NCBI RefSeq assembly: GCF_014647595.1
Contig: NZ_BMPM01000003.1
Span: 372,001 to 436,000 of the forward strand
Length of the DNA: 64,000 bases
Direction of reading: 5' to 3'
Origin: Paenarthrobacter histidinolovorans
GTDB lineage: Bacteria; Actinomycetota; Actinomycetes; Actinomycetales; Micrococcaceae
Shown in pieces: positions 1 to 19,872 of the stretch (positions within the stretch are counted from its first letter, which is position 1; every line of letters starts with the position of its first letter). The translations under genes were made by a program, and so were the position numbers. A model generated the notes under the pieces. That model had not been told where the DNA came from. It worked only from the letters and a program-made list of their open reading frames with translations, and made no database searches.

Positions 1-316
1 AGTGCGAAGTCCTCGGCCCGCTCCGTCACCAGGTCAAAGGCCCGGCGCAGGATTTCCGCGCGTTCCCGAGGCGCGCTGCGCGCCCAGGATGCTTGGACGG
101 CGGCTGCCGCGTCGAGCGCGCCGATGGCGTCCTCGCTTGTGGCCGAGGCCAAGGTGGAGAGCACTTCTCCCGTGGCTGGGTCGTGAACATCGAACGTGCC
201 GCCGTCGGACGCGTCCCGCCACTGACCCCCGATCAACAAACCGGTAGGGACAGAGGCGAGGAGATCGGCCTAACGCTCGCGTGAGAGACGGTCGGATCAA
301 CGAGGGCAGTAGTCAT
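1..316 (-). pseudogene. Succinate/glutarate-semialdehyde dehydrogenase, 5' end (damaged and partial)
   Basis: The reverse strand encodes the N-terminus typical of NAD(P)-dependent succinate-semialdehyde dehydrogenases (GabD/DavD type): a segment reading LLIGGQWRDASDGGTF, then DPATGEVLSTLASAT. The gene continues beyond base 1. A good start exists at 316 (ATG after TTTAGGAG), but that frame ends after 27 codons. The dehydrogenase frame only opens after a TAG at 272-270. Compared with the expected N-terminus there is a net 2-base insertion near 279-284 plus the nonsense codon, so the gene looks inactivated, or the sequence has errors here. It lies downstream of the esterase/monooxygenase/alcohol dehydrogenase operon on the same strand. 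That suits oxidation of a semialdehyde such as glutarate semialdehyde. An internal TTG start near 235 could give a shortened protein. Confidence 0.7.
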
Positions 317-339
317 GAGACTCCTAAAGAAGCGTGAGT

Positions 340-381
340 GACGGCGATAACCCGCCCTTAGGGTGGTGGGCTATTGCCGTC
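340..381 (-). terminator. Long imperfect hairpin between esterase and aldehyde dehydrogenase
   Basis: GACGGCGATA at the left pairs with TATTGCCGTC at the right around CCCGCCC/GGGTGGTGGG, giving about 18 mostly paired positions with a short loop. It sits 37 bases past the esterase stop and just before the dehydrogenase ribosome site. It could be a terminator or attenuator inside the operon. There is no clear U-tract, as is common in actinobacteria. Confidence 0.45.
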
Positions 382-418
382 CTTGATTAATCAGATGAAG
401 GGACATCTTCCAGCTCAG

Positions 419-1372
419 TCAGACAGTACGGTCCCTGATAAAGGCAGCGACCTGGTCTACTGTTTGTTCTCCACGGGGAATACGTCCCGATGAGGTGAAC
501 AGCCCGTGGGCGTACCCGGGAAGGTGCTGGTAAAGGACTTCGGTGCCTGCCCGGGCTAGTGCGGCAGCGTAGTTTGCGCCTTCATCAACCAGCGGATCGT
601 TGTCCACAGTGATCACATACGTCGGAGGCAGTCCTGCAGGGAGCTGAGCCATGACGGGGCTGATATCCGGTGCAGAGCGGTCGACGTTCTCTGGCAGATA
701 GTGGTCCGCAAACCAAGCAATGGTGTCCGCAACCAGGGGGAACCCATCGGTGACTCGTTGGTAGGACGGCGAGGACATGGTCAGGTCCACCATGGGGTAC
801 ATGAGGACCTGACCAACTATGGGCAGGGGCTCTGTCGTTGCGGCGTTCTCGTTGGCCAGGACTGCGGCCAGCTGCCCCCCAGCGCTGTCGCCGACGAGCA
901 CAGCCTCTGTCACATCCAAGCCATGCTCGTTGCCGGCTTCAAATAGCCACCGCATCGCGCTGCGGCTGTCGTCGATCGCGGCCGGGTAGGGGTACTCCGG
1001 GGCAAGCCTGTAGTCCACTGCTATGACGGGCAGGCTGGCGCGGGAGGCTAATCGACGGCACAACCCGTCATGAGTTGAGAGGCTACCCATAACCCATCCC
1101 CCGCCGTGGAAAAACAGAACGGCGGGGGTGGGGCCTCCGGTGTTGCGGGGGTCATAGACCCGAACATTGAAGACCGCCACGTTGTAATCAATGACCGACG
1201 GCAGCGGGTCACCGCTCAGCCCGTTTGCAGCGCAGCTGCTCTCGTAGAGCTCGCGCACTTGCTTGACAGGATAGGAGTGAAATGGACGGCCGCCGGACGC
1301 CCGGAATCGCTGCAGAACTTCTGCTGCGTCCGGTGATACGGGCCTCCCGCTAAACCGGTCGGTTTTTGTCAC
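419..1372 (-). CDS. Alpha/beta hydrolase, hormone-sensitive-lipase family (esterase/lactonase)
   Basis: A 317-residue cytoplasmic alpha/beta hydrolase. It carries the HSL-family oxyanion motif HGGGW (residues 89-93), the nucleophile elbow GDSAGG with Ser163, the acidic residue in DNDPL (about Asp259) and the catalytic His in GYAHG (about His289), so the triad is complete. The GTG start at 1372 overlaps the stop of the upstream flavin monooxygenase (GTGA), which shows translational coupling. In gene clusters for cyclic ketones, the enzyme next to the Baeyer-Villiger monooxygenase hydrolyses the lactone or ester formed (ChnC-like enzymes belong to this family). That role is inferred here from context; the natural substrate cannot be read from the sequence. 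Confidence 0.85.
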   Translation of the reverse strand: MTKTDRFSGRPVSPDAAEVLQRFRASGGRPFHSYPVKQVRELYESSCAANGLSGDPLPSVIDYNVAVFNVRVYDPRNTGGPTPAVLFFHGGGWVMGSLSTHDGLCRRLASRASLPVIAVDYRLAPEYPYPAAIDDSRSAMRWLFEAGNEHGLDVTEAVLVGDSAGGQLAAVLANENAATTEPLPIVGQVLMYPMVDLTMSSPSYQRVTDGFPLVADTIAWFADHYLPENVDRSAPDISPVMAQLPAGLPPTYVITVDNDPLVDEGANYAAALARAGTEVLYQHLPGYAHGLFTSSGRIPRGEQTVDQVAAFIRDRTV

Positions 1373-2856
1373 TTTGCGGGTCCGGAGTTGGCCAGTTGCA
1401 GGTAGTCGTCAAGCTGGAGGTCGTGGGTGTGGGCTCGATATTCTTCGACGGTTCCGGACCAGTTGTTGATGACGCGGCCGTCCTCGTTCTTGTACCAGGA
1501 GGAGCATTCTGAAGAGAACGCGGACTTCTGGAGTTCTTCCTGGACGTGTGCATTGAACTTCTCCACTACCGCCCGGTCTACTTCCAGGATTCGTGATTCG
1601 TCGGCCGCGATGTACTTGACAGCCTGGGCGATGTAACGGTGCTGGGCCTCCAACATCGAAACGACGGAGTTGTGGTTGAGGTTGGTGTTGGGGCCGTAAA
1701 CCAGGAATAGGTTGGGGAAGTTGTCGACGGTAATGCCCAGGTAGGCTTCCGGAGCGTTGCCCCACCGCTCGTGAAGGTCGATTCCGTCGCGTCCTGAGAC
1801 GCTCATTGATCCCATGAAAGCGTGGCTCTTAAACCCGGTGGCGTAGATGATGACGTCAAATTCATGCTCGATGCCGTCGGCGGTGCGGAGTCCACGGGGA
1901 GTGAATTCCGTGATTGCCTCTGTCACCAGTTCTACGTTCTCGCGGTTCAGCGCAGGGTAAAAGTCGTCGCTCCGCAGGATGCGCTTGCAACCGAAGTCGT
2001 AGTCGGGCGTGAGTTTGGTCCGCAGTTCAGGGTCGGAGACCTGGGTCTCGAGGTGCTGGCGGGCCAGTTCGACCCCTTCTTCGGAAGCTGCCGTATGGCG
2101 CCGGGTACGTTCGAATCCGGCTTCACGGAACTCGTGGATTTCCTGACGCAACTGGCGGTAGGTATCCGGGTTTTCTTGGAATCGGGCGCTCTCTTCCTCG
2201 GTGAAGATGTACTGGTCCCGGGGAAGGATGTAGTTTGCTGAGCGTTGGAAGACGGTCAGGTTGGATGCGATCTTGGCAACCTCGGGTACGTACTGAACGG
2301 CGGTTGCAGCGGAGCCGATGGAAGCGACGCGTTTGCCGGTCAGGTCGAGGTCATGCCGCCACTTGGAGGAGTGGAAGGCCACGCCTTCGAAGGTTTCAGT
2401 GCCGGGGGAGTTGGGGATGTTCGGTTCGTTCAGCTGGCCCCAGGCGGCCACCACTGAACGCGTCAGGAACTCCGAGCCATCGGCCGTGTGCACGGTCCAA
2501 AGACGACGGCTTTGGTCCCATTCAGTCGCGGTGATGTTCTGGCCGAAGTGGATGTGCTTGCCGAGCCCGAATTCCTCAACCATGGAGCGCAGGTAGCCCT
2601 GCAGTTCCTCCTGGCCGGCAAACATCCGGCTTACCTTGAGGTTCAGGAAGTAGCTGTAGCAGTAGACCGGGGCCTGCGTATCACATGCGGCACCGGGATA
2701 GGTATTTTCGCGCCAAACGCCTCCCACATCGTTGCCGCGCTCGAGGATCAGGAAGTCCTCGATGCCTTCCTGGGCGAACTGGGCTCCCTGGCCCAGGCCG
2801 CCGAAGCCGGCGCCGATGATGATTGTGCTGTAGATGTGGTCACTTGTGGAGGTCAT
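1369..2856 (-). CDS. Flavin-containing (Baeyer-Villiger type) monooxygenase
   Basis: A 495-residue FAD/NADPH monooxygenase. The FAD-binding Rossmann motif GAGFGG is at residues 15-20. The type I Baeyer-Villiger fingerprint F-x-G-x3-H-x3-W is intact at 156-166 (FEGVAFHSSKW). The second dinucleotide motif, near 180-186, reads IGSAATA, with Ala where the second Gly is usual. A C-terminal stretch FKSHAFMG and GPNTNLNHNS fits the family. It would insert oxygen next to a ketone to give an ester or lactone. The gene lies 32 bases after the alcohol dehydrogenase stop and overlaps the esterase start by four bases, so alcohol, ketone, ester and hydroxy acid steps are co-transcribed. The exact ketone is unknown. 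It is somewhat short for the family (often 520-550). Confidence 0.88.
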   Translation of the reverse strand: MTSTSDHIYSTIIIGAGFGGLGQGAQFAQEGIEDFLILERGNDVGGVWRENTYPGAACDTQAPVYCYSYFLNLKVSRMFAGQEELQGYLRSMVEEFGLGKHIHFGQNITATEWDQSRRLWTVHTADGSEFLTRSVVAAWGQLNEPNIPNSPGTETFEGVAFHSSKWRHDLDLTGKRVASIGSAATAVQYVPEVAKIASNLTVFQRSANYILPRDQYIFTEEESARFQENPDTYRQLRQEIHEFREAGFERTRRHTAASEEGVELARQHLETQVSDPELRTKLTPDYDFGCKRILRSDDFYPALNRENVELVTEAITEFTPRGLRTADGIEHEFDVIIYATGFKSHAFMGSMSVSGRDGIDLHERWGNAPEAYLGITVDNFPNLFLVYGPNTNLNHNSVVSMLEAQHRYIAQAVKYIAADESRILEVDRAVVEKFNAHVQEELQKSAFSSECSSWYKNEDGRVINNWSGTVEEYRAHTHDLQLDDYLQLANSGPAK

Positions 2857-2888
2857 GGTGTTCTCTCTTCGAGCTGGAATATGGGTGG

Positions 2889-4043
2889 TCAGGAAAAGGT
2901 GATGAGCTGGCGCAGCGCGTGGCCGCCATCGAGCGTGTCCATGGCGCGGTTGATTTCTTCGAGCGGGATAGTGTCTGAGACGAGTCCTTCAACGGCCAGT
3001 TGGCCGGATCGCCAAAGCTGTTCGTAGATCGGAATGTCGTGTTCCGGGATTGCGGAGCCGAGGTAGCTGCCCACGATCGACCGGGCCTCCGCTGTCAGGG
3101 TTAGAGGGTCGATGGAGACGGACTGGCCCGGCGCCGGCAATCCCACGGTGACAGTGATGCCGCCGGGTTTTGTCAATGTGATAGCAGCTTCCAAAGCACG
3201 CGGGTGTCCTGCGGCTTCGATGACGGCGTCAAACTTTTCACCGCGTTCCAGGGCATCAGCAGAGGTCATGGCGTCCGCTGCACCAAGCTTCCGGGCAGCT
3301 TCCAGTTTGGCTGGCAAGGTATCGACACCGACAACATGTTCAACCCCGGTAGCGATGGCCGTAATGAGCGCCGCCATGCCTACTCCGCCGAGACCGACGA
3401 TGGCTACCCGGGTGGAAGGTGCCGGCTTCGCGACATTGAGGATTGCTCCTCCGCCGGTGAGAAGGGCGCATCCGAGCAAAGCGGCGATGTGTGCAGGGAC
3501 GTCGGACCCGACCGGGACAACGGAACGGCGGGAGACCACGGCATGGGTGGCGAAAGCCGAGACCCCAAGGTGGTGTTGGACCGGTGTACCTTCACGGGAG
3601 AGTCTGCGGTTCCCGCCCAGCAGCGTTCCTGCAGTATTCGAAGCGCTGCCCTGCTCGCACGGCGTTTTGCCATTGGAGTTGCATCCGGAGCATTCACCGC
3701 AACGGGGGAGGAAGGTCATGACGACGCGCTGGCCCAAGGAGATGTCGTTTACGTCCTCGCCAAGTTCTTCAACGATGCCTGCCGCCTCGTGTCCGAGCAG
3801 CATTGGCACTGGTCGTGGCCGGTTTCCGTTGACGACGGAAAGGTCCGAGTGGCATATGCCGGCCGCCTCGATGCGGACCAGGATTTCGCCCTTGCCAGGG
3901 CCTTCGAGTTCGAGGTTCTCGACATGGATGGGACGGGTGTCCGCGTAGGGGCGCTCTGCCCCGATGGCCTCAAGTACGGCCCCGCGGATGGTCCTGGTGC
4001 CGGTGGCTGGCCTCGCGGTTGACTTCGTATCTTCGATCGTCAC
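2889..4043 (-). CDS. Zinc-dependent alcohol dehydrogenase (MDR superfamily)
   Basis: A medium-chain NAD(P)-dependent alcohol dehydrogenase of 384 residues with GTG start at 4043, chosen because GAGAGGA sits just upstream; a longer reading from 4121 has no ribosome site. It has catalytic zinc ligands in GICHSD and GHEAAG, the four-cysteine structural zinc lobe (CGECSGCNSNGKTPC) and the coenzyme motif VGLGGVGM. It resembles class III-like bacterial ADHs. It is the first gene of the leftward operon with the monooxygenase and esterase. It could oxidise a secondary or cyclic alcohol to the ketone, or an omega-hydroxy acid after ring opening (ChnA or ChnD roles). Which of the two cannot be decided from sequence. 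Confidence 0.88.
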   Translation of the reverse strand: MTIEDTKSTARPATGTRTIRGAVLEAIGAERPYADTRPIHVENLELEGPGKGEILVRIEAAGICHSDLSVVNGNRPRPVPMLLGHEAAGIVEELGEDVNDISLGQRVVMTFLPRCGECSGCNSNGKTPCEQGSASNTAGTLLGGNRRLSREGTPVQHHLGVSAFATHAVVSRRSVVPVGSDVPAHIAALLGCALLTGGGAILNVAKPAPSTRVAIVGLGGVGMAALITAIATGVEHVVGVDTLPAKLEAARKLGAADAMTSADALERGEKFDAVIEAAGHPRALEAAITLTKPGGITVTVGLPAPGQSVSIDPLTLTAEARSIVGSYLGSAIPEHDIPIYEQLWRSGQLAVEGLVSDTIPLEEINRAMDTLDGGHALRQLITFS

Positions 4044-4414
4044 GATGGTCCTCTCAGTGGTGCAGTAAAACTGTGCAGGGAAGTCGTTTCGGAAGGGACC
4101 GCGTGGGGCTATTAGCACCATGTGTGCTGCCTCGTGTGCTCATGGTTCCTCCTACGACGGTGTGCACATTCCCGAGGAGGGGTCCTTCCTCCGACGATGG
4201 ACTGTCCATTGAGATTAGGCAGCCGGGCGGGCTGCGTCACGATGCAGAAAGTCGAGATATGCGCTTTTCTTTGTACGAAGCGTCAAAGGGCGCGGGGCGC
4301 AGTTGTGTAGCCGCCTTTTGGGGACCGGCGCATGTGGCGCGGGATAGGACAACTTTTCATGGGCAGTTTAGTCCACTGGTCGTTTTTTCCGGCCAGTGGG
4401 GCTTGCGCTGCGGT
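4044..4414. other. Gap between pucR-type gene and alcohol dehydrogenase operon
   Basis: 371 bases without a supported gene, upstream of the leftward catabolic operon and therefore likely to hold its promoter. Bases 4117-4146 have outer arms ACCATG/CATGGT around a repeated GTGTGC, a possible regulator site. Bases 4373-4399 form a hairpin with 7-base arms (CCACTGG/CCAGTGG) just past the regulator stop, a possible terminator. Confidence 0.4.
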
Positions 4415-5854
4415 TTAGTCGTTTCGGGTTGCTTGGGGACGCCCTCTGAGGGCGAGCCAGAGCTGGGCGGCTACGTCGGGGTCATCGAGGTCGACCGCCA
4501 ACAGTTCCTTTGCTTGGGCAATTCGATAACGGACCGAGTTCCGGTGGACTCCCAGTTCTCGACCGGCCGCCTCGAATTGTCCGCGGTGGGCTAGGTAGGA
4601 GCGAACCGTTTCAAGTAACTGTCCGGGGTGGGCAGCCAATTCGTCCAGCCATTCATCTGTCGGCAGGTCGAGGCCGTGACCAACGCGTATGAGCTGACCG
4701 GCGGGCGCCAAGGCGGCTACCTCGGCCACTTGGGCTCCGATTTCGTGAAGCCTCCTTAGGGGCATCGGACCGCCCCATGCACCGCGCACACCTTTCGGCA
4801 ACGTCGGATAGGGGTTCGATGCTGCCTGAAGCACAAAGAGGACACCGAAACGTTGGAGTACCAGCCCGGACAGGGCGTGCTGGGTGGCCACCTGTTCGTT
4901 GTCTGGCAGGACGGCGACGAAAGCTGTTTCGGGCAGCGGGTCGGAACCCATCTGCTGTGCAAGGAGCCGGGCTGCATCGTCATGGCCTTCCAGGACCAGG
5001 GCTGCGAGCATTCCCTCAGCGCGTCGACGCTCCGCCGCGGCGTTGCGCTGTCCGGCTGCTCTAGCCGCCAGGAGCGTGGATGCGGTGAGGAACAAATGCC
5101 GCTCGGCAGCAGCCAGTTGCCCACTTCTGCCCAAGGCCAGGTAGCCAGAAGCTGTTGGACCGTCAGATACCGGGTAGAGGGACGCCACACCGGATGCCAG
5201 TTGAATGTTGCCGGTGGCTCCTCGGCGCGCATTTCGCAGCATGGCGGATTCCCGCGTGAGTTCACTCAGCAGGCCCGGCGGAAGTTCAGCACCATTGGCT
5301 GCCGAGGACGGGGCCCCGTCGCCTTCAGGAAGGTAAGCAACCCAGGTCCCCAGAGCTCTGGACAGTTCCCGAACGATCTCCGGTTCAGCGTCATCCTGCG
5401 CGGCGGCCCGAGTCAAAGCAACCTGAAGCCCTAGCAGAGCGGTGAGTTCGGCTTCGCCGCCCTGCCTGACAAGCTCCCAGTAGGCGCGCGATACCGCCAG
5501 GAACGGGGACTCGCGGGGAATGGTCAGAAGAGGGAGGCCGGCCTCCACGCAAGCTGCCCGCAGCTCGTCCGGCACCATGGCATGTCCTGAGCCCAGGCCG
5601 AGACCCAAAGCGGCCACGCCGCCGTCGACCAGACGTTGCACATACTTGTTCGCGGACTCTTGGCGCGCGTCTCTATCGAGGTCAGTGAGCTGCAGCCCGA
5701 CAGTGAGGAGGAGCTCGCCACCGTAGAGGAACATCGTGGGATCCTCCAGCTCCGAGACATGCACGCCGGTCAGTTCAACGCGGGGGAGCGGGACGGGCCA
5801 ATAGGGCGCCAGGTCGCGCTTTGCAGCCTCCACAAGCCTTGCGAGGGTGATCAT
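4415..5854 (-). CDS. PucR-family transcriptional regulator
   Basis: A 479-residue regulator. The N-terminal PucR-like purine-catabolism domain (ITLARLVEAAKRDLAPYW onward) is followed by a GGDEF-like/CdaR-type central part. The C-terminal PucR helix-turn-helix, around LAHRGQFEAAGRELGVHRNS and VRYRIAQAKELL, is preceded by LLETVRSYL. The ATG at 5854 is preferred because homologous N-termini begin there; codons before it look untranslated. It is divergent from the aminotransferase and upstream of the alcohol dehydrogenase operon, and is probably the local activator of both. PucR-type proteins usually sense a pathway intermediate, which is not identifiable here. Confidence 0.85.
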   Translation of the reverse strand: MITLARLVEAAKRDLAPYWPVPLPRVELTGVHVSELEDPTMFLYGGELLLTVGLQLTDLDRDARQESANKYVQRLVDGGVAALGLGLGSGHAMVPDELRAACVEAGLPLLTIPRESPFLAVSRAYWELVRQGGEAELTALLGLQVALTRAAAQDDAEPEIVRELSRALGTWVAYLPEGDGAPSSAANGAELPPGLLSELTRESAMLRNARRGATGNIQLASGVASLYPVSDGPTASGYLALGRSGQLAAAERHLFLTASTLLAARAAGQRNAAAERRRAEGMLAALVLEGHDDAARLLAQQMGSDPLPETAFVAVLPDNEQVATQHALSGLVLQRFGVLFVLQAASNPYPTLPKGVRGAWGGPMPLRRLHEIGAQVAEVAALAPAGQLIRVGHGLDLPTDEWLDELAAHPGQLLETVRSYLAHRGQFEAAGRELGVHRNSVRYRIAQAKELLAVDLDDPDVAAQLWLALRGRPQATRND

Positions 5855-5977
5855 GGCTAAATCATAGCGACCCCGTTTTGTACGTTGAGACGGATCCCTC
5901 ATTTTTTCTGGACAGAATGTACAACGACACGTGCCCGGACTGTCCCTATCGTGGATTTCACCACACGAGGAGGACCT
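5855..5977. promoter_or_regulatory. Divergent promoter region with inverted TTGTAC half-sites
   Basis: This 123-base region separates the PucR-type gene from the aminotransferase. TTGTAC at 5878-5883 and GTACAA at 5919-5924 are inverted half-sites, each in a wider similar context (CGTTnTGTAC). They are candidate binding sites for the adjacent regulator. An AT-rich stretch (CATTTTTTCTGG) lies between them. The aminotransferase ribosome site is GAGGAGGACC before the ATG at 5978. Confidence 0.35.
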
Positions 5978-7336
5978 ATGACTGCCACATCAGCACTCGC
6001 CGCAAACCATTCCAAAGATCCGGCCGCCGTCAGGGCCGCAGCACGCCGCCTACTCACCGAACTTCCAGGCCCACGTTCCCGCGAGCTTGAGGCCGAGCGC
6101 CGTCAGCACGTCACCGACGCATTTGGTGTCACTTTGCCGGTGTTCATCGATCACGCGCACGACGCGCTGCTCGTAGACGTTGACGGAAACCATCTTATTG
6201 ATTTCGCCTCAGGCATTGCCGTGACCAGCGTTGGCGCTGCGAACCCAAAGGTGGCCAAACGGGCCGCTGCCCAGCTTGAGCGCTTCACCCACACCTGCTT
6301 CATGGTGACTGAATACGAGTCCTTCGTTGAAGTCTGCCGGTGGCTCAACGAACACACCCCAGGGGACTTCGAGAAGCGGACCGCGCTGTTCACCACCGGC
6401 GCGGAGGCGGTAGAAAACGCTATTAAGGTCGCCCGTGCCGCCACCCGCCGCGCCAATATTCTCGTTTTTGACGAGGCTTACCACGGCCGAACACAGCTAA
6501 CGATGGCGATGACGGCCAAGGAGAACCCGTATCGGCTGAACTTCGGACCTCTGCCGGGCTCAGTTTTCCGGGCGCCGACGGCGCCCGCGCACACCTCTCC
6601 GGATGGACCGGCGAAGGCACTCGAAAAGATCGAGGCCATTTTGGCAGAACACGGCGCGGAAACGTTTGCCGCTATGGTAATTGAGCCGATTCAAGGCGAG
6701 GGTGGCTTCATTGTTCAGGCCCCCGGGTTCCTGAAAGGCATCCGTGAAATCGCGACCCGACACGGCATTGTGCTGGTCATTGATGAGATTCAGGCAGGCA
6801 TGGGCCGAACCGGCACGCTGTTCGCTTCAGAGCACGAAGGTATTGCCGGTGACATCACACTATCTGCGAAAGCTCTTGGTGGCGGGTTGCCTCTTTCGGC
6901 GGCTACTGGCCGCGCCGAACTCATGAACGCCGTCCATACCGGTGGTCTCGGCGGGACCTACGCAGGCAACCCCGTAGCCTGCGAAGCCGCTCTGGCTGTC
7001 TTCGAACTCCTCGAAGACGGCAAGCTCCTGAAGAACGCCACTTTTGTCGAAAACGCAGTCAGGCGCCGCCTGGAGCCGCTCGTAGAACTTGACGGTGTTG
7101 CAGACGTTCGCGGCAGGGGTGCCATGATGGCAATCGAATTCCGCGACGCCTCAGGGCCCCGTGGAGACCTCGCTGTCACGGCCGCGAAGGCAGCCAACGC
7201 TCATGGTGTCCTGACTCTTACCTGCGGGACCAACGGAAACATCATCCGGCTGCTGCCTCCGCTCGGGATCGAAGCGGACGTCCTCGACGAGGGACTTGCA
7301 GTGTTGGAGGCATCCATTCGGTCGGTATTGTCATGA
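5978..7336 (+). CDS. gabT: Class III PLP aminotransferase (4-aminobutyrate/5-aminovalerate type)
   Basis: A 452-residue fold-type I, PLP-dependent omega-aminotransferase of the GabT/DavT family. Visible motifs are TTGAEAVENAIKVARAAT (cofactor phosphate site), IDEIQAGMGRTG with the PLP-ring Asp, and SAKALGGGLPLSA with the Schiff-base Lys. The start at 5978 has a strong GAGGAGG ribosome site. It would convert 4-aminobutyrate or 5-aminovalerate and 2-oxoglutarate to the semialdehyde and glutamate. The gene downstream encodes glutaryl-CoA formation and oxidation, and a semialdehyde dehydrogenase remnant lies across the regulator. A C5 substrate (5-aminovalerate, giving glutarate) is therefore the better inference, although family members often take both. 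Confidence 0.87.
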   Translation: MTATSALAANHSKDPAAVRAAARRLLTELPGPRSRELEAERRQHVTDAFGVTLPVFIDHAHDALLVDVDGNHLIDFASGIAVTSVGAANPKVAKRAAAQLERFTHTCFMVTEYESFVEVCRWLNEHTPGDFEKRTALFTTGAEAVENAIKVARAATRRANILVFDEAYHGRTQLTMAMTAKENPYRLNFGPLPGSVFRAPTAPAHTSPDGPAKALEKIEAILAEHGAETFAAMVIEPIQGEGGFIVQAPGFLKGIREIATRHGIVLVIDEIQAGMGRTGTLFASEHEGIAGDITLSAKALGGGLPLSAATGRAELMNAVHTGGLGGTYAGNPVACEAALAVFELLEDGKLLKNATFVENAVRRRLEPLVELDGVADVRGRGAMMAIEFRDASGPRGDLAVTAAKAANAHGVLTLTCGTNGNIIRLLPPLGIEADVLDEGLAVLEASIRSVLS

Positions 7337-7370
7337 TTTTCCGGGGAAGGTGGACCCTGGGGGGTCAGCT

Positions 7371-9803
7371 ATGAGCTCCGGCGCACCATTGGAGGGGATC
7401 GTCGTCGCCGATTTCTCCCGCGTGCTCGCCGGTCCGCTCGCGACCATGACCCTGGCCGACCTCGGCGCACGGGTCATCAAGGTCGAGCGCCCCGGAACCG
7501 GAGATGACACCCGCCAGTGGGCACCACCTTCCTCAAAGACAGGTGCGACGTACTTCGAGAGCGTCAACCGAAATAAGGAATCCATCACCCTTGACCTGAC
7601 CGACCCCGAGGACCTCGAGCTTGCCCGGGAACTGGCACGCCGCGCCGACGTCTTGGTGGAGAACTTCAAACCAGGAGGACTCGCCAAACTAGGCCTCGGA
7701 TATGAGTCACTAGGCGAGGAGAACCCCGGTCTGGTGTACGCATCAATTTCGGGTTTTGGTTCGGAAGGAGGTCGTGATCTGCCCGGATACGACTTCATAG
7801 TGCAGGCTGTCGGCGGACTGATGAGCATTACCGGTGACCCGCGGGGCGACGCCTACAAAGTTGGCGTCGCCCTGGTCGATGTACTGACAGCGAAAGACGC
7901 CACGATTGGCATCCTCGCGGCCCTTTCCGAGCGTAGTTCCACGGGCCGAGGCAGGCGGATCGAGGTCAATCTTCTATCGAGCCTCCAGGGCGCCCTTGCC
8001 AACCAGGGCCAGGCGTACCTCGGCGCCGGTATCACTCCTGCGCGACTGGGCAATGACCACCCTTCCATCGTCCCTTATCAACTTCTTGCCACCGGTGATG
8101 ACCCGCTCGCCGTTGCCGTTGGTAACGACTCGCAGTTCGCCAAGCTCTGCAACGCCATCGGCAATCCAGAGCTTTCCGCTGATCCCCGGTTTATCACCAA
8201 CTCTGCACGGGTCAGGCATCGGCGGGAACTTGTCACGCTGTTGGAAGCCGGACTCACAGACGCTGGATCGAAGGAATGGCAGAACCGGCTGGTTTCTGTG
8301 GGAGTACCGGCCGGCCGCGTGGCCGGCATAGGTGAAGGCATCTCATACGCCGAATCCTTGGGTCTGGAGCCGACCATTCCCGTCCATGACGCCGACGGGA
8401 ACGTTACCGGCCGCCAGATCCGCCATCCAATCACCTGGACGCCGGCACTGCCGCCTCGGACCCAAGCTCCACCCGCCCTCGGTGAGCACACCGCAGACGT
8501 CGTGGACTGGCTACGGCAACACCACCAAAACAAGACGTCTACCCATGCCTCTCAAAATGCCACCCAGTCAGAAGTCGTTTATGCCAGGAGGGACCACATC
8601 ATGACTCTCGCCCCTAGTTCCGCCGACGTCGAGGCCGCTACCGCGCTCGAGCCCTCGGACCTGATCTCCTTCGATACCCTCCTCACAGACGAGGAAATCG
8701 CCCTGCGCGACCGCGTCCGCAATTATGTTCGCGAGGAAATCAAACCCAACATCGCCACCTGGTATGAAGAGGCCCGGTTCCCGCTGGAAATCGTCCCTGA
8801 TCTCGCTAAACTCGGCCTTCTCGGAATGCACTTGAAAGGCTACGGCTGCGCCGGTAAAAGCGCTGTGGACTACGGGTTGGCAGCTGCCGAACTCGAGGCC
8901 GGAGATTCAGGCATCCGCACATTCGTTTCAGTCCAAGGCTCTCTGGCCATGTCGGCAATCTCGAAGCACGGTTCCGATGAACAGAAAGAGGAATGGCTAC
9001 CCCAAATGGCCGCTGGCACCGCCATCGGATGCTTTGGCCTCACGGAACCCACTGCGGGTTCAGACCCCTCTGCCATGGCCACTTTTGCCCGCCGGGACGG
9101 CGCCGACTGGATATTGACCGGCTCCAAGCGGTGGATCGGACTAGCCAACATATCCCAGGTGGCAGTTATATGGGCCCAGACAGACACCGGCGTGCGCGGA
9201 TTCGTCGTACCAACCCAGACTCGTGGCTTTACCGCCACCCCAATTCAGCCGAAGCTATCAATGCGCGCTTCTGTCCAATGTGACATCACTCTGGATGACG
9301 TGCGTCTGACTGCCGACGCGGTCCTGCCGAACGTCATTGGCCTCCGAGGCCCTTTTACCTGCCTGAATGAGGCACGCTACGGCATTGCCTGGGGCACCAT
9401 GGGCGCCGCGCGCGACGCCTTCGAAGATGCCTTGGACTACTCCAAGAAGCGGCTCCAGTTCGAACGGCCCCTCGCCGGCTACCAGTTGACCCAGCAGAAA
9501 CTCGTGAACATGGCGCTGGAGATCAACAAAGGGTTCCTTCTCGCATTGCAGCTCGGACGGCTAAAAGACGCCGGCAAGCTGCAGAACCATCAGATCAGCG
9601 TAGGCAAGCTCAACAACTGCCGGGAAGCTATCGAAATCTGCCGCGAAGCACGCACAATCCTGGGCGGCAACGGGATAACCCTCCAACACTCGCCCCTTCG
9701 CCACGCGAACAACCTCGAGTCCGTTCGTACGTACGAAGGCACTGACGAGGTCCACACCCTCATCCTCGGCCAGAAGCTGACAGGTATTGGAGCCTTTCGG
9801 TGA
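7371..9803 (+). CDS. Fused class III CoA-transferase and glutaryl-CoA dehydrogenase
   Basis: A single 810-codon open frame with two enzymes. Residues 1 to about 385 are a CaiB/BaiF CoA-transferase (VVADFSRVLAGPLATMTLADLG, then RVIKVERPGTGDDTR; a catalytic Asp is expected in this family). From ATG 8601 (about residue 411) runs a full acyl-CoA dehydrogenase of the glutaryl-CoA dehydrogenase type, ending RTYEGTDEVHTLILGQ with the catalytic Glu. The pair would turn glutarate into glutaryl-CoA, then crotonyl-CoA plus CO2. The linker looks like an untranslated gap that happens to be open: a strong ribosome site (AGGAGGGACC) precedes ATG 8601, so the dehydrogenase may also be made alone (400 residues). 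The gene lies 34 bases after the aminotransferase in the same operon. GcdH and its CoA-transferase are usually separate genes. Confidence 0.85.
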   Translation: MSSGAPLEGIVVADFSRVLAGPLATMTLADLGARVIKVERPGTGDDTRQWAPPSSKTGATYFESVNRNKESITLDLTDPEDLELARELARRADVLVENFKPGGLAKLGLGYESLGEENPGLVYASISGFGSEGGRDLPGYDFIVQAVGGLMSITGDPRGDAYKVGVALVDVLTAKDATIGILAALSERSSTGRGRRIEVNLLSSLQGALANQGQAYLGAGITPARLGNDHPSIVPYQLLATGDDPLAVAVGNDSQFAKLCNAIGNPELSADPRFITNSARVRHRRELVTLLEAGLTDAGSKEWQNRLVSVGVPAGRVAGIGEGISYAESLGLEPTIPVHDADGNVTGRQIRHPITWTPALPPRTQAPPALGEHTADVVDWLRQHHQNKTSTHASQNATQSEVVYARRDHIMTLAPSSADVEAATALEPSDLISFDTLLTDEEIALRDRVRNYVREEIKPNIATWYEEARFPLEIVPDLAKLGLLGMHLKGYGCAGKSAVDYGLAAAELEAGDSGIRTFVSVQGSLAMSAISKHGSDEQKEEWLPQMAAGTAIGCFGLTEPTAGSDPSAMATFARRDGADWILTGSKRWIGLANISQVAVIWAQTDTGVRGFVVPTQTRGFTATPIQPKLSMRASVQCDITLDDVRLTADAVLPNVIGLRGPFTCLNEARYGIAWGTMGAARDAFEDALDYSKKRLQFERPLAGYQLTQQKLVNMALEINKGFLLALQLGRLKDAGKLQNHQISVGKLNNCREAIEICREARTILGGNGITLQHSPLRHANNLESVRTYEGTDEVHTLILGQKLTGIGAFR

Positions 9804-10530: not shown

Positions 10531-11418
10531 TTAAACCTTTGCTCTCTCGTGTGTTCCATTGGCCAGGAGCAAGCCATCAAAGCCAGTTGGTGCCGTGAGG
10601 TCTTTGTACAGTTCTGGGCGGCGCTGCTCGAGGAGGGGAAACTGCCGGCGGGTGTTATCGATGAGTTCAAGATCTAACGTTGCTGACAGGACACCTTGAC
10701 GGTCCGAAGCTGTAGCGATGACTAGGCCCCATGGGTCGACGACCATGGATCGGCCGACAAACATCGTACCACTGGCTGGCTCCTGACCGAATTGCCCTGA
10801 TGCAATTACGAAGACCTGATTCTCTACGGCGCGGGCGCGTAGCAGGAATTCCCAGTGGTCCGAGCGAGGTGCGAGGAAGGCTGAACAGTTGATTAATATC
10901 CTCGCCCCGTTCAGGGCCAGCACCCGATAGGGCTCTGGAAAGCGGAGGTCAGCGCAAATGGTCACTCCTAGCTTTCCGAAGGGAGTGTCGAACGTGGGTA
11001 GTCGTGAGCCAGCTGTTACCTTGTCGGATTCGTTAGACGGATTCGTGATGTCGGTTCTATTTCCTGCGTCAAAGAGATGCGTTTTCTCGTACGTTCCGAC
11101 GGGCCCATCTGGCCCTGTGAGTACCGCTGCGTTGGTTGTCTTGCCGTCGCGTATGCGATAAGTCGAGCCGACGATGTAGCAGTTGTACTCCTCTGCTATT
11201 TCCTGAAGTTGTGCATCGACGGCGTCGTTCCGTTGCAAGATGTCCTCTGGTGTCCTGTGCGGACCTAGCCCAAGTCCCGTCCACAACTCAGGCAGCACGA
11301 TGACATCTGCCCGATTCATCGCCGCCTGACGGGTAAGCCGGATGCCAGTGGCGATGGTTCCTTCCGGGTCCAGGTCAGACGAGGTGGTTTGAATAATGGC
11401 GACGTTAAGAGAGGTCAT
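10531..11418 (-). CDS. Carbon-nitrogen hydrolase (nitrilase superfamily)
   Basis: A 295-residue amidase/nitrilase-fold enzyme. The catalytic Glu-Lys-Cys set is present: PELW (Glu), YEKTHLFDAG (Lys) and TICADLRFPE (Cys). Family members hydrolyse amides, N-carbamoyl compounds or nitriles. The presence of omega-amidase-like KTHLFD suggests a small amide acid substrate, but this is not certain. The ATG at 11418 overlaps the stop of the upstream transporter (ATGA), so the two are translationally coupled. The pairing suggests that the transporter imports the substrate. The LacI-type regulator across the divergent promoter probably controls both. Confidence 0.85.
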   Translation of the reverse strand: MTSLNVAIIQTTSSDLDPEGTIATGIRLTRQAAMNRADVIVLPELWTGLGLGPHRTPEDILQRNDAVDAQLQEIAEEYNCYIVGSTYRIRDGKTTNAAVLTGPDGPVGTYEKTHLFDAGNRTDITNPSNESDKVTAGSRLPTFDTPFGKLGVTICADLRFPEPYRVLALNGARILINCSAFLAPRSDHWEFLLRARAVENQVFVIASGQFGQEPASGTMFVGRSMVVDPWGLVIATASDRQGVLSATLDLELIDNTRRQFPLLEQRRPELYKDLTAPTGFDGLLLANGTHERAKV

Positions 11419-12743
11419 TTGGTATCCGCTTCCGTATAGGTGTCCAGCGTGCTCGCGTTCCGTGGCAGCAGGACGAGCGTCAGCGCAACGACCGCGGCGA
11501 GGGAGGAAGTATAGATGGCTGGTGCTAGCAAGTTTCCGGTGGCTGCTACGAGCCACGTCGCTACAAGTGGTGCAGTCCCGCCGAAGACGATGTAAGCCAG
11601 GTTGTAGCCTAATGCTGAACCACTGAACCGGACGGAAGCGGGAAAACGTTCAAGGTATGCGATGCCGACGGGGCCAAAGAATATTCCTAGGGCAAGCGCG
11701 AGAAGTGACTGGCCCATTACGGCACCGCCCAAAGTGCCGACGCCGGCAAGCATATAGGCAGGGATAGCAGCGACCGCGGAGAAGACGGCCCCAATTATGA
11801 GTACTTTATTCCGCCCCAACCTGTCTGACCAGGCTCCCGCAAGAGGAGTGGCCACCGCAGCGATCAGCAACGCGATGGAGTTGGAGAGGAGGGCTTCGTT
11901 GCCGGATAGTTTTACCGATGTTGTTAGGTAGCTGACGAAATAGCCTGTGAGCGTGTAAAACCCCAGTCCTGCCAAGGCCGCCACTACAAAGGTGAATAGC
12001 AGCGCTTTCCGGTGATACTTGAGAACGGATACGGCAGGTGCGGACTGGATGGAGTCCTTGACTGCTATTTCTTGGAATTCCGGTGACTCGTCGACCTGCC
12101 GTCGAATGTAAAGCCCAAAGAAGCTGATCAGTCCGCCGATTAGAAATGGGACGCGCCAACCCCACTCGCCGTAGGCTGCCATTCCCATGGTGTTTGTCAG
12201 ACCGAGGATCAGAAGCGCTGCAAAGATAGCTGGAAGGTTTGCGAACGTATAGCTCAGGCCTACGAAAAAGCCGCGTCGTTCACGGGGCGCATGTTCGGCA
12301 ACGAGCGCGTTCGAGCCCATGGCCTCGGCGCCAGCTGAGAGTCCCTGGACCAGTCGGCACACCACCAGGAGAATGGGTGCGGCGATGCCGATTGCCGCAT
12401 ACGTAGGAAGTAGACCGATGGTTACGGTCGCGAGTCCCATGATCAGAATGACCGCAGATAGAACATTGCGGCGTCCGCGTTTGTCTCCATGGTGGCCAAA
12501 CAGGATCCCTCCCACTGGTCGCATCACAAAGCCCACCGCATAAACGGCAAAAGCGGAGAGAAGACCAGCTACGGGGTCATCTGAGGGGAAAAAGAGTTTG
12601 GCCAGCACTACGGCTGAGTAGGCGTAAATTACAAAGTCGTACCATTCGACGAACTGACCTACCGCCGCCGATGCAACCACCCGGCGTAAGCCCCCCACTT
12701 GCGCACGAGTAGTCGTCTGAATCTTGCTGCTTGAAGTAGCCAT
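11415..12743 (-). CDS. MFS transporter, metabolite:H+ symporter (MHS) type
   Basis: A 442-residue inner-membrane protein with about 12 hydrophobic segments. The N-terminal ASAAVGQFVEWYDFVIYAYS and the loop GHHGDKRGRRNVL are hallmarks of the MHS group (ShiA, KgtP, ProP relatives), which carry organic acids or zwitterions with protons. A second copy of the loop motif (DRLGRNKVL) starts the C-terminal half, as expected. It is the first gene of a two-gene operon with the nitrilase-family hydrolase. Its promoter contains the palindromic site next to the LacI-type gene. The substrate is unknown; a small carboxylate or amide that the hydrolase acts on is the inference. Confidence 0.87.
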   Translation of the reverse strand: MATSSSKIQTTTRAQVGGLRRVVASAAVGQFVEWYDFVIYAYSAVVLAKLFFPSDDPVAGLLSAFAVYAVGFVMRPVGGILFGHHGDKRGRRNVLSAVILIMGLATVTIGLLPTYAAIGIAAPILLVVCRLVQGLSAGAEAMGSNALVAEHAPRERRGFFVGLSYTFANLPAIFAALLILGLTNTMGMAAYGEWGWRVPFLIGGLISFFGLYIRRQVDESPEFQEIAVKDSIQSAPAVSVLKYHRKALLFTFVVAALAGLGFYTLTGYFVSYLTTSVKLSGNEALLSNSIALLIAAVATPLAGAWSDRLGRNKVLIIGAVFSAVAAIPAYMLAGVGTLGGAVMGQSLLALALGIFFGPVGIAYLERFPASVRFSGSALGYNLAYIVFGGTAPLVATWLVAATGNLLAPAIYTSSLAAVVALTLVLLPRNASTLDTYTEADTK

Positions 12744-12858: not shown

Positions 12859-13884
12859 GTGCCTCAGAAAATCGGACGACAGCCAACCATCAAGGATGTA
12901 GCAGCGGTTGCTGGCGTCTCAATCAGCACGGTGTCGCACGTATACAGCCGTGCCCGGCCTATCTCACCGGAGACCGCGGCGCGGGTAACGGCAGCAGCGG
13001 ACGAGCTTGGATACATTCCGAATCCTTCTGCCGCTTCACTGCGTGGCGGGCAGGTCGGAATTCTTGGACTTGTGCTGCGGCCACGGAATGCAATTCATGG
13101 GTCCCTGAGCGGCACCGAGACGTTCACGCGATTCTCTGGCGCCGCGGCCGCAGCCACCCTGGCCACAGGACGAGGTCTCCTTCACGTCCCGAACGTTCTT
13201 GCTAGCAGAGCCCGACGCGTGGCTATGGACGGCTGCATCGTCATGGGTCCCTACGAAGGCGACGAAGTGGTCATCGCCTTGGAGAAGAGACATGTCCCGG
13301 TCGTGTGCGCCGATATAGACCCGGCAAACCCAGACGACCCATGGGCTGTCCGCGTCGACTACGGCCCTGCCACCGAGAGTCTACTTTCAGCTGCCCTGGC
13401 ACTCGGCGCACGACGTGTCGCACTAATCGCCGGTAGTGAAGCCAACAACTGGACGCGATCCACGAAAACCCTTATTCAGCAGTGGTGCACAGAAGCTGGG
13501 GTTAGTCTCAGTGCGCACAACCTTTATGAAGGTGAGGGCTCCGTCGGAGCGGCGGGACTGGCTTATGAATTATTGACTTCTTCCGAGGCGCCTGACACGA
13601 TCATCGTCTCATCCACGAGATTCGCGAGTGGCGTACTTGCAGCCGCCAAAAGACTTGACCTGACGATTCCCGAAGACCTCCGCATTTGCGCACTGACTGA
13701 TAGTGCACTGACAAGGGAGGCATCGCCACCCATCACATCCCTGGATCTGCTTCTTGAAGATCAGGCCAAGGCCTGTGTGGACCTACTTATCCATAGGCTC
13801 TCAGGCTCTGCCCCAACTGCGCGGCCGGTAGTTGTGACGCCGTCGGTCCGGTGGAGAAGTTCATTAGCGCAGATCGAGAACTGA
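12859..13884 (+). CDS. LacI-family transcriptional regulator
   Basis: A 341-residue repressor. The N-terminal LacI helix-turn-helix is clear (PTIKDVAAVAGVSISTVSHV), followed by the hinge region (ELGYIPNPSAASLRGG) and a periplasmic-binding-protein-like effector domain. The GTG start has a GGAGA only two bases away, so initiation may be weakly Shine-Dalgarno dependent or leaderless. It is divergent from the MHS transporter/hydrolase operon, with an operator palindrome between, and so is almost certainly its regulator. The effector-domain residues do not allow the ligand to be named. Confidence 0.9.
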   Translation: MPQKIGRQPTIKDVAAVAGVSISTVSHVYSRARPISPETAARVTAAADELGYIPNPSAASLRGGQVGILGLVLRPRNAIHGSLSGTETFTRFSGAAAAATLATGRGLLHVPNVLASRARRVAMDGCIVMGPYEGDEVVIALEKRHVPVVCADIDPANPDDPWAVRVDYGPATESLLSAALALGARRVALIAGSEANNWTRSTKTLIQQWCTEAGVSLSAHNLYEGEGSVGAAGLAYELLTSSEAPDTIIVSSTRFASGVLAAAKRLDLTIPEDLRICALTDSALTREASPPITSLDLLLEDQAKACVDLLIHRLSGSAPTARPVVVTPSVRWRSSLAQIEN

Positions 13885-17950: not shown

Positions 17951-18037
17951 CGTGATCACAGGCTCGAACGCGGCAGGCGTCATCGCACGACTTGAATGGG
18001 CCGATCGAGATGCCCACTTGAATGGGAAGGGCTAGAC

Positions 18038-19861: not shown

Positions 19862-19872
19862 TCCAAGATGCA

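Follow-up and report, generated by a model that had tools for sequence, protein, structure and literature searches.

At the left end of a 64,000-nucleotide stretch of the genome of the soil bacterium Paenarthrobacter histidinolovorans (the window; positions 372,001 to 436,000 of contig C3, in a 4.65-Mb genome), we identified a gene cluster with two units on either side of one PucR-type regulator. The right unit encodes an aminotransferase, a CoA-transferase, and a glutaryl-CoA dehydrogenase, and sequence similarity supports it as a set of enzymes that would convert 5-aminovalerate to glutaryl-CoA and crotonyl-CoA. The left unit encodes a Baeyer-Villiger monooxygenase, an esterase, an alcohol dehydrogenase, and an aldehyde dehydrogenase. 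The growth substrate of the cluster is likely a cyclic C5 amine. More tentatively, and with somewhat less than even confidence in the scheme as a whole, we propose that the cluster is a hub for C5 omega-amino acids whose feed in this genome would be a cyclic secondary amine, and that the monooxygenase would belong to a branch that shortens glutarate semialdehyde. Family-level gene identities, conservation, linkage, tree placements, and the absence of glutaryl-CoA dehydrogenase and CsiD from some carriers were established directly; from these we infer all of the substrates and reactions.

A first-pass annotation of this DNA had described these gene types and the layout of two units around one regulator, and family scans of the window's reading frames confirmed both. 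The semialdehyde dehydrogenase that it assigned to the left unit is present, but it extends off the window and is frameshifted in this assembly. The annotation had also placed the cluster within positions 1 to 9,803; the core does lie there, but a module with a cytochrome P450 and a ligase lies about 2-13 kb further left. The genes of the cluster within the window are:

1..316, minus strand: aldehyde dehydrogenase of the succinate semialdehyde dehydrogenase (SSADH) type, 5' part; runs past the left edge of the window (contig C3, about 370813-372316)
419..1372, minus strand: alpha/beta hydrolase, HSL-type esterase; LipP1-like at 278 bits (below the cut-off of 350), Abhydrolase_3 at 220 bits; HGGGW and GDSAG motifs
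1369..2856, minus strand: type I-like Baeyer-Villiger monooxygenase, 495 amino acids; 253 bits to cyclohexanone monooxygenase 7v8o; both fingerprints
2889..4121, start probably 4034, minus strand: zinc-type alcohol dehydrogenase; NDMA-dependent alcohol dehydrogenase family at 253 bits (below the cut-off of 440); GICHSD and GHEAAG motifs
4415..5902, start probably 5854, minus strand: PucR-type regulator; PucR at 67 bits, HTH_30 at 72 bits
5978..7336, plus strand: omega-amino-acid aminotransferase, class III, of the gamma-aminobutyrate (GABA) type; 453 bits to GabT 3q8n; YHGRT motif; in a clade beside GabT in the tree
7371..8600, end approximate, plus strand: family III CoA-transferase; the best family is succinate-glutarate CoA-transferase (NF052585)
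8601..9803, plus strand: glutaryl-CoA dehydrogenase; 520 bits to 3sf6; DSGIRT and YEGT motifs; own ribosome site

The esterase and monooxygenase genes overlap by 4 bases. By its fingerprints and sequence, the monooxygenase is a member of the type I Baeyer-Villiger family. The fingerprints of this family are FxGxxxHxxxW and GGxWxxxxYPGxxxD, and the residue after W is usually P or D. In the window's protein, the first fingerprint is FEGVAFHSSKWR (at residue 156) and the second is GGVWRENTYPGAACD (at residue 45), where R follows W. Among solved members, it scores 253 bits against cyclohexanone monooxygenase and 233 bits against phenylacetone monooxygenase, and a profile search agrees.

In the right unit, the nearest known enzyme to the glutaryl-CoA dehydrogenase is 3sf6 (520 bits), and none of the curated NCBIfam cut-offs is reached. 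The hallmarks of glutaryl-CoA dehydrogenases are a catalytic Glu within the YEG motif and the Arg of DSGxR. The CoA-transferase scores 340 bits against NF052585, under the curated cut-off of 750, and this is still the top-scoring family for that half of the open frame. The aminotransferase scores 564 bits against PRK06058 (cut-off 639) and 457 bits against TIGR00700 (cut-off 507), and it contains YHGRT, whose arginine binds the substrate carboxylate in GabT. Since this arginine is kept, we set aside cyclopentylamine as a substrate of the aminotransferase. The right set had already been read as a 5-aminovalerate route, and this is supported by the family matches and by the PipA-like P450/ligase modules that adjoin it in relatives.

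We searched 198 genomes of the genus and found the monooxygenase (84% identity or above) in 14 of them. The core (the esterase, monooxygenase, and alcohol dehydrogenase genes, the PucR gene, and the aminotransferase, CoA-transferase, and glutaryl-CoA dehydrogenase genes) occurs as a group in 13 of these 14, except that the glutaryl-CoA dehydrogenase is merely partial in one of the 13 (G061). Given this conservation, the grouping of these genes is not due to chance. In the collection of named genomes, the window's closest relatives are mostly Arthrobacter.

Right units also occur alone. Six other genomes of the genus have an aminotransferase that is 65-67% identical to the window's, along with PucR, a CoA-transferase, a glutaryl-CoA dehydrogenase, and an aldehyde dehydrogenase, in stretches without the monooxygenase. 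Four of the six also have a flavin amine oxidase together with a permease and one more aldehyde dehydrogenase; a fifth has a different flavin amine oxidase; and L170 has none. (Two of the five stretches' amine oxidases were scanned against families and three were judged by eye.) These monooxygenase-free right units read as a putative route from cadaverine through 5-aminovalerate to glutaryl-CoA. In Arthrobacter ruber, about 30 kb contain first an SSADH-type dehydrogenase, the alcohol dehydrogenase, the monooxygenase, the esterase, a glutamate dehydrogenase, the CoA-transferase, PucR, and the aminotransferase, and then the glutaryl-CoA dehydrogenase, an aldehyde dehydrogenase, a hydroxyacyl-CoA dehydrogenase, a thiolase, and a P450 module. 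A. ruber and the right units that adjoin P450 modules are good circumstantial evidence that C5 cyclic amines would be broken down via 5-aminovalerate and glutarate.

In the window's own genome, the module to the left shares its strand with the left aldehyde dehydrogenase. It encodes an amino acid permease; a cytochrome P450 with its electron carriers, a ferredoxin and a ferredoxin reductase; a ligase that resembles glutamine synthetase; a solute-binding-like protein; two hydrolases of the Peptidase_C26 type; and an aldehyde dehydrogenase that resembles SSADH. The opposite strand has genes for a GntR regulator and a cache-domain protein. These genes read as a probable cyclic secondary-amine module that is related to the PipA/MorA systems. 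P450s with over 40% identity to PipA or MorA belong to the family CYP151. On the Gordonia plasmid pGKT2, genes for GntR, the cache-domain protein, the P450 (62% identity), and the ligase (60%) are in identical order; this P450 has reportedly been named CYP151C. The P450 of the window genome shares 59-65% identity with P450s from Leucobacter (three genomes) and Gulosibacter (two genomes; 64-65%). Our link to PipA goes via these Gulosibacter P450s rather than a direct alignment, and the figure that completes it is from a further Gulosibacter strain: according to an excerpt of the report on Gulosibacter molinativorax (PMC9477822), its PipA and BioI share about 52-53% identity with PipA from M. 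smegmatis and MorA from Mycobacterium HE5. The same excerpt states that M. smegmatis PipA is induced on piperidine, that HE5 MorA oxidizes morpholine, and that glutamine synthetases have locus numbers adjacent to both P450s in G. molinativorax (PMC9477822).

The solute-binding-like protein of the module begins with MSARLTLACID and has no evident signal peptide. Its gene (solute-binding family 3; L006:8481-9257, minus strand) overlaps the ligase gene, and the position between ligase and hydrolase is kept in Arthrobacter, Gulosibacter, and Leucobacter. It would be unusual for this fold to serve in the cytoplasm in the metabolism of gamma-glutamyl amines.

The P450 was found in 5 of the 198 genus genomes: in 3 of the 14 monooxygenase carriers and in 2 of the 184 others (Fisher p 0.003, ignoring kinship). 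One genome (G151) has the P450 module without the monooxygenase. The P450/ligase module lies beside the core in the window genome, G051, G075, and A. ruber, and it lies beside the CoA-transferase and glutaryl-CoA dehydrogenase genes in A. mobilis, Gulosibacter chungangensis, and G. macacae. (In G075, the P450 gene, L032 at C2:109734-110928, is split over two frames; other genomes have intact copies.) The first-pass annotation had suggested a cyclic C5 amine or ketone as the substrate. The P450 module makes the amine likely; the case for a ketone is weakened, though not refuted.

Other potential entry modules lie near relatives of the monooxygenase. In the stretches around 34 loci of the monooxygenase's clade (described below), we found lactamase-like HyuA/HyuB at 10, a cyclic-amine P450 at 3, an amine oxidase at 2, and none of these at 19; no locus had two. 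(A. ruber is counted among the 19, as its P450 is just past the stretch.) We scanned HyuA/HyuB from two loci, and the best families were CapA (517 and 544 bits) and CapB (336 and 329 bits), each with a curated cut-off of 1000. As described in the excerpt of PMC9477822, Gulosibacter hyuA/hyuB left caprolactam undegraded when expressed, so the name lactamase-like is to be taken with caution. At the Rothia locus L069, a GABA-permease-like gene is beside the monooxygenase unit. These neighbors point to omega-amino acids as the probable common intermediate. We considered a transporter-like gene beside HyuA/HyuB in G366 as an NCS1 permease and dropped it, as it had no Pfam or NCBIfam match.

The main rival to a chain-shortening branch is an amino-ketone substrate. 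The monooxygenase would then act on a ketone that contains nitrogen. This could be a 2-substituted piperidine or pyrrolidine after ring opening, or a ring ketone formed through hydroxylation by the P450 and oxidation by the alcohol dehydrogenase; hydrolysis of the ester would give GABA or 5-aminovalerate for the aminotransferase. This would account for the P450/ligase module beside the unit in the four Arthrobacter genomes named above and in Leucobacter (cx-42 and L. salsicius, which have no aminotransferase there), and an alcohol dehydrogenase, a monooxygenase, and an esterase would suit a ring alcohol. But L066, L069, L076, and L078 (from Kocuria, Rothia, and two Corynebacterium) keep the four-gene set of aminotransferase, monooxygenase, esterase, and alcohol dehydrogenase, although their genomes contain no match to this P450 at E 1e-60 or better. 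Also, the lactamase-like and amine-oxidase neighbors would yield plain omega-amino acids or aldehydes, not ketones. We consider an amino-ketone substrate to be unlikely.

The shortening of a semialdehyde that comes from the aminotransferase is our preferred role for the left unit, and the distributions of the two enzymes are closely tied. A close aminotransferase (at least 86% identity) is present in 13 of the 198 genus genomes, all of which are among the 14 with the monooxygenase (these genomes are related, not independent), and none of the 198 has the close aminotransferase without the monooxygenase. A family-wide search of 395 genomes from 32 genera found the monooxygenase (at least 55%) in 15 genomes, which belong to 6 genera. 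We then examined the best 80 of 288 monooxygenase loci from named genomes. In a tree with 84 rows, the aminotransferase-linked monooxygenases form one clade of 34 (SH-aLRT 97), which spans Arthrobacter, Kocuria, Rothia, Corynebacterium, and one metagenome-assembled genome from the Propionibacteriaceae; the clade was delimited by hand on a tree from a quick method, and L102 is long-branched. An aminotransferase (at least 45%) is in the examined stretch of 31 of the 34 clade loci versus 0 of the 50 loci outside the clade. At L062, another clade member, the aminotransferase is further away, and we found it in a larger stretch of that genome (G366). (We omitted the duplicates L059-L061, L063-L065, and L129 from both the aminotransferase and the monooxygenase trees and from the tallies, and L091 and L096 from the monooxygenase tree and tally as well. 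Monooxygenases of 43% identity or less, L133 and L135-L137, were omitted from the monooxygenase tree and tally, and aminotransferase-like proteins below 45%, L104, L123, and G016b, were omitted from the aminotransferase tree.)

The aminotransferases fall into two lineages at a fully supported fork: one from Micrococcaceae, which includes the monooxygenase-free right units, and a GabT lineage in Corynebacterium. The aminotransferase partner would have been either recruited twice or replaced in place, which points to a functional need for the pairing. The full set of aminotransferase, monooxygenase, esterase, and alcohol dehydrogenase is found in Corynebacterium (including C. tuberculostearicum and C. 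striatum), Rothia, Kocuria, and Arthrobacter, and our literature searches found no described role for it. In C. tuberculostearicum, the first three genes are consecutive, with gaps of 55 and 24 bases.

Two genes that resemble membrane transporters by eye are also present in C. tuberculostearicum (L076:12557-16724, plus strand), one between the esterase and alcohol dehydrogenase genes and one after the latter. They might indicate the substrate; no NCBIfam model matched them at 1e-40. Fourteen positions set the aminotransferase-linked monooxygenases apart from the others, including Arg234, which is found in 33 of 33 and is Glu in 35 of 51 others. Arg234 may hint at an acidic substrate, but our proposal does not rest on it.

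It seems quite improbable that the monooxygenase, esterase, and alcohol dehydrogenase act on an unrelated ketone, such as a small aliphatic one, and share a location with an amino-acid cluster without any functional tie to it. The linkage is maintained in four genera with two lineages of aminotransferase, and the gene row in C. tuberculostearicum is tight. Mere co-location would fit with how common aminotransferase-free pairs of monooxygenase and esterase are outside the clade (50 of the 84 tree rows, none with an aminotransferase of at least 45%). It would also fit with G016, which retains the unit without the aminotransferase, and with plasmid pGD02.2.1 of Rhodococcus rhodochrous (L196), where the unit adjoins unrelated acyl-CoA genes. 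On this plasmid, the alcohol dehydrogenase (71% identity), monooxygenase (61%), and esterase (61%) are next to a CoA ester lyase and PrpD-like, CaiB-like, MaoC, and acyl-CoA dehydrogenase proteins. At three other loci outside the clade (L097, L099, and L085), a glutaryl-CoA dehydrogenase-like, a CoA-transferase-like, or a second monooxygenase gene is near the monooxygenase.

We asked whether carriers of both the aminotransferase and the monooxygenase could use glutarate. Our test set of 18 such genomes excludes the 13 full-core genus genomes, which all have glutaryl-CoA dehydrogenase in the cluster. A match to glutaryl-CoA dehydrogenase (at least 50%) is absent from 9 of the 18: all 3 Rothia and 6 of the 11 Corynebacterium; among these six is C. 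tuberculostearicum, whose chromosome sequence is complete. It is present in Arthrobacter 260 (G366), G548, A. ruber, Kocuria, and five Corynebacterium (in two pieces in the genome of L077). The other known route for glutarate begins with CsiD, which we found in none of 14 genomes, including all nine that lack the dehydrogenase; the E. coli control was positive. The CoA-transferase (at least 48%) is present in 3 of 15 genomes tested, and an SSADH-type homolog (at least 68%) in 10 of 12. Because the nine carriers have neither glutaryl-CoA dehydrogenase nor CsiD, a route that ends in glutarate would be stuck in them, barring a third way.

This bears on the route that was first suggested for the left unit, from cyclopentanol or cyclopentanone through delta-valerolactone and 5-hydroxyvalerate to glutarate semialdehyde and glutarate, which the right unit would reach from 5-aminovalerate, both under one regulator. 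All of the enzyme types for that route are present, and an excerpt of a report on an engineered cascade from cycloalkanols to dicarboxylates (PMC7542165) gives an identical enzyme order. In A. ruber, the CoA-transferase gene follows the alcohol dehydrogenase, monooxygenase, esterase, and glutamate dehydrogenase genes on one strand. In G016, which has no close aminotransferase in its genome, the monooxygenase unit, the CoA-transferase, and the glutaryl-CoA dehydrogenase are within about 10 kb. In Cryobacterium (L097 and L099), a glutaryl-CoA dehydrogenase (70-71%) is about 8 kb from the unit, with no aminotransferase. However, 9 of the 18 carriers would have no outlet for glutarate, and the monooxygenase is accompanied by an aminotransferase, for which the breakdown of cyclopentanone has no use. 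The neighboring modules that we recognized serve amines or lactams, and we noticed no cycloalkane module in the gene lists, although we made no dedicated search. Together with the SSADH type of the left dehydrogenase, the linkage to the aminotransferase and the carriers without glutaryl-CoA dehydrogenase or CsiD weaken the idea of a cyclopentanol-type unit that meets the right unit at glutarate, and we now view it as rather improbable.

The two types of aldehyde dehydrogenase are easier to account for with two branches. For the left one, the intact ortholog from G121 has SSADH (TIGR01780) as its top family (557 bits; cut-off 646), and homologs with 69-71% identity adjoin GabT in Rothia and Kocuria. 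For the right one, which is found in relatives, the top family is C5 oxo-acid semialdehyde dehydrogenase (460 bits, under the curated cut-off). Both types are in one cluster in G085, G075, G121, G077, G548, and A. ruber, and a scheme with two branches would explain this.

In the proposed scheme, the feed substrate in the window genome would be a cyclic secondary amine, most likely piperidine, that is taken up by the permease. The glutamine-synthetase-like ligase would convert the amine to a gamma-glutamyl amide; the PipA/MorA-like P450, with its ferredoxin and reductase, would open the ring to an aldehyde; and an aldehyde dehydrogenase and the two C26-type hydrolases would set 5-aminovalerate free. 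The aminotransferase would then form glutarate semialdehyde. In one branch, this would be oxidized to glutarate, which the CoA-transferase and glutaryl-CoA dehydrogenase would convert to crotonyl-CoA. In the other branch, the substrate of the monooxygenase would be glutarate semialdehyde instead of a ring ketone, and its product would be 4-formyloxybutyrate, which the esterase would split into 4-hydroxybutyrate and formate. The alcohol dehydrogenase would oxidize 4-hydroxybutyrate to succinate semialdehyde, from which the left aldehyde dehydrogenase, of the SSADH type, would form succinate. We prefer this role for the left unit because the aminotransferase, monooxygenase, esterase, alcohol dehydrogenase, and SSADH-type dehydrogenase are each used once, in series. 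Since the second branch would end in succinate, it would be independent of glutaryl-CoA dehydrogenase. The two-branch scheme fits the Corynebacterium loci where the unit is near a second GabT (L073, L074, L077, L078, and L081). By extension, actinobacteria that lack glutaryl-CoA dehydrogenase, including skin corynebacteria, might use Baeyer-Villiger chain shortening to send C5 amines, lactams, and 5-aminovalerate into the tricarboxylic acid cycle as succinate; this broader claim is possible but distinctly doubtful.

Several observations weigh against the chain-shortening branch. Our literature searches found no precedent for such a branch or for a natural monooxygenase that acts on an omega-oxo acid, and we noticed no gene for formate in the gene lists. 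Two clade members, G016 and C. otitidis (L102), have no aminotransferase in the examined stretch. The arrangements in G016, Cryobacterium, and Leucobacter that were described above count here as well, as do the distant monooxygenase-esterase pairs that adjoin iron alcohol dehydrogenases with no close aminotransferase (Ralstonia L087 and Microbacterium L128 were scanned; the others were judged by eye). Where the unit occurs without the aminotransferase, it may act on a plain ketone or on an aldehyde or ketone that carries an amino group. The aminotransferases of Corynebacterium, being in the GabT lineage, may act on GABA. The branch would be redundant in Arthrobacter, as all 13 full-core genomes have glutaryl-CoA dehydrogenase in the cluster (partial in G061). 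SSADH-type enzymes may also accept glutarate semialdehyde, and the left aldehyde dehydrogenase adjoins the core in just 9 of the 14 monooxygenase-positive genus genomes, counting the window's broken copy. Finally, we found no operator shared by the two promoters. A candidate 9-mer that the two promoters have in common is missing, at up to 1 mismatch, from at least one promoter of each pair in A. ruber, Kocuria, and Rothia; it has 14 copies in the window at that threshold. Both promoters are conserved within Arthrobacter.

The state of the window's own cluster also weighs against the scheme. The left aldehyde dehydrogenase starts near position 316 and ends about 1.2 kb beyond the left edge of the window, and its reading frame shifts at two points in this assembly, while the relatives' copies are intact at the same spot. 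Collinearity with G075 (about 90% identity over 23 kb) stops just past the glutaryl-CoA dehydrogenase. After the core, a right aldehyde dehydrogenase is found in 5 of the 13 full-core genus genomes (G085, G075, G121, G077, and G051) and a hydroxyacyl-CoA dehydrogenase in 6 (the same five and G141). The 5.2 kb that follow the window's glutaryl-CoA dehydrogenase contain no trace of the right aldehyde dehydrogenase, the hydroxyacyl-CoA dehydrogenase, or a thiolase. Perhaps the cluster in this genome has been trimmed and is possibly decaying, or perhaps the assembly is erroneous. With the left aldehyde dehydrogenase broken and the right one missing, the pathway here would require paralogs or be in decay. 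One aldehyde dehydrogenase paralog is on contig C2 (74% identity).

In this assembly, the CoA-transferase and glutaryl-CoA dehydrogenase also form a single open frame of 835 codons. We rejected a conserved fusion because a stop lies between the two genes in 12 of 12 relatives and a separate ribosome site (AGGAGG) precedes the ATG of the second gene at 8601.

Elsewhere in the window, the plus strand encodes an RT_UG33 reverse transcriptase (DRT, a PADLOC class) at 23972-25557, in two overlapping frames of 216 and 323 codons (model positions 5-199 and 200-489) that are apparently split by a frame change. Directly 5' of it (17996-23898, plus strand) are genes for a PDC-S39-like protein (512 bits; DUF7380/DUF4209) and for a 1341-codon protein with a weakly LmuA-like N-terminus and a weak match to nSTAND NTPases. 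Together, these three are a candidate defense island. Right after the cluster (10534-12743, minus strand), a carbon-nitrogen hydrolase gene overlaps the end of an MFS transporter gene, and a regulator that is LacI-like by eye is encoded beside this pair (12859-13884, plus strand).

If the scheme is true, then the branch itself is new and would be a natural use of Baeyer-Villiger chemistry on an omega-oxo acid. It would provide a second route for the degradation of 5-aminovalerate, with formate as a marker product, and it would place piperidine, lactam, and cadaverine catabolism in a common frame.

Each part of the cluster can be compared to a known system. All parts of the 5-aminovalerate-glutarate-crotonyl-CoA route are together in G075, G121, G077, G051, G548, and A. 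ruber, with the hydroxyacyl-CoA dehydrogenase next in these relatives and a thiolase in several of them, where the stretch reaches that far. Unlike that route, the cluster here has PucR control, its CoA-transferase is of family III, and a unit of monooxygenase, esterase, and alcohol dehydrogenase genes lies across the regulator. The cyclopentanol pathway of Comamonas (cpnABCDE) comprises an alcohol dehydrogenase, a Baeyer-Villiger monooxygenase, an ester or lactone hydrolase, and an aldehyde dehydrogenase. The cluster shares these four enzyme types, but its monooxygenase has 495 amino acids, is clustered with an aminotransferase, and is kept in genomes without glutaryl-CoA dehydrogenase. As in the P450 systems of Mycobacterium for piperidine, pyrrolidine, and morpholine (PipA/MorA), a related P450 is encoded with an adjoining ferredoxin, reductase, and ligase; the module here differs in that it would feed a downstream cluster and has a solute-binding-like protein, two C26-type hydrolases, and a permease. 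Among the ATP-dependent lactamases of the CapAB/OplAB type, the caprolactamase CapAB is the best match for the HyuA/HyuB proteins beside the core in relatives (two loci scanned), but their scores are well under the cut-offs of 1000, and we saw no such genes in the window's cluster. Overall, the cluster probably amounts to the 5-aminovalerate/glutarate route that is already known, entered through a module of the PipA/MorA type, and its combination with the monooxygenase unit appears to be new.

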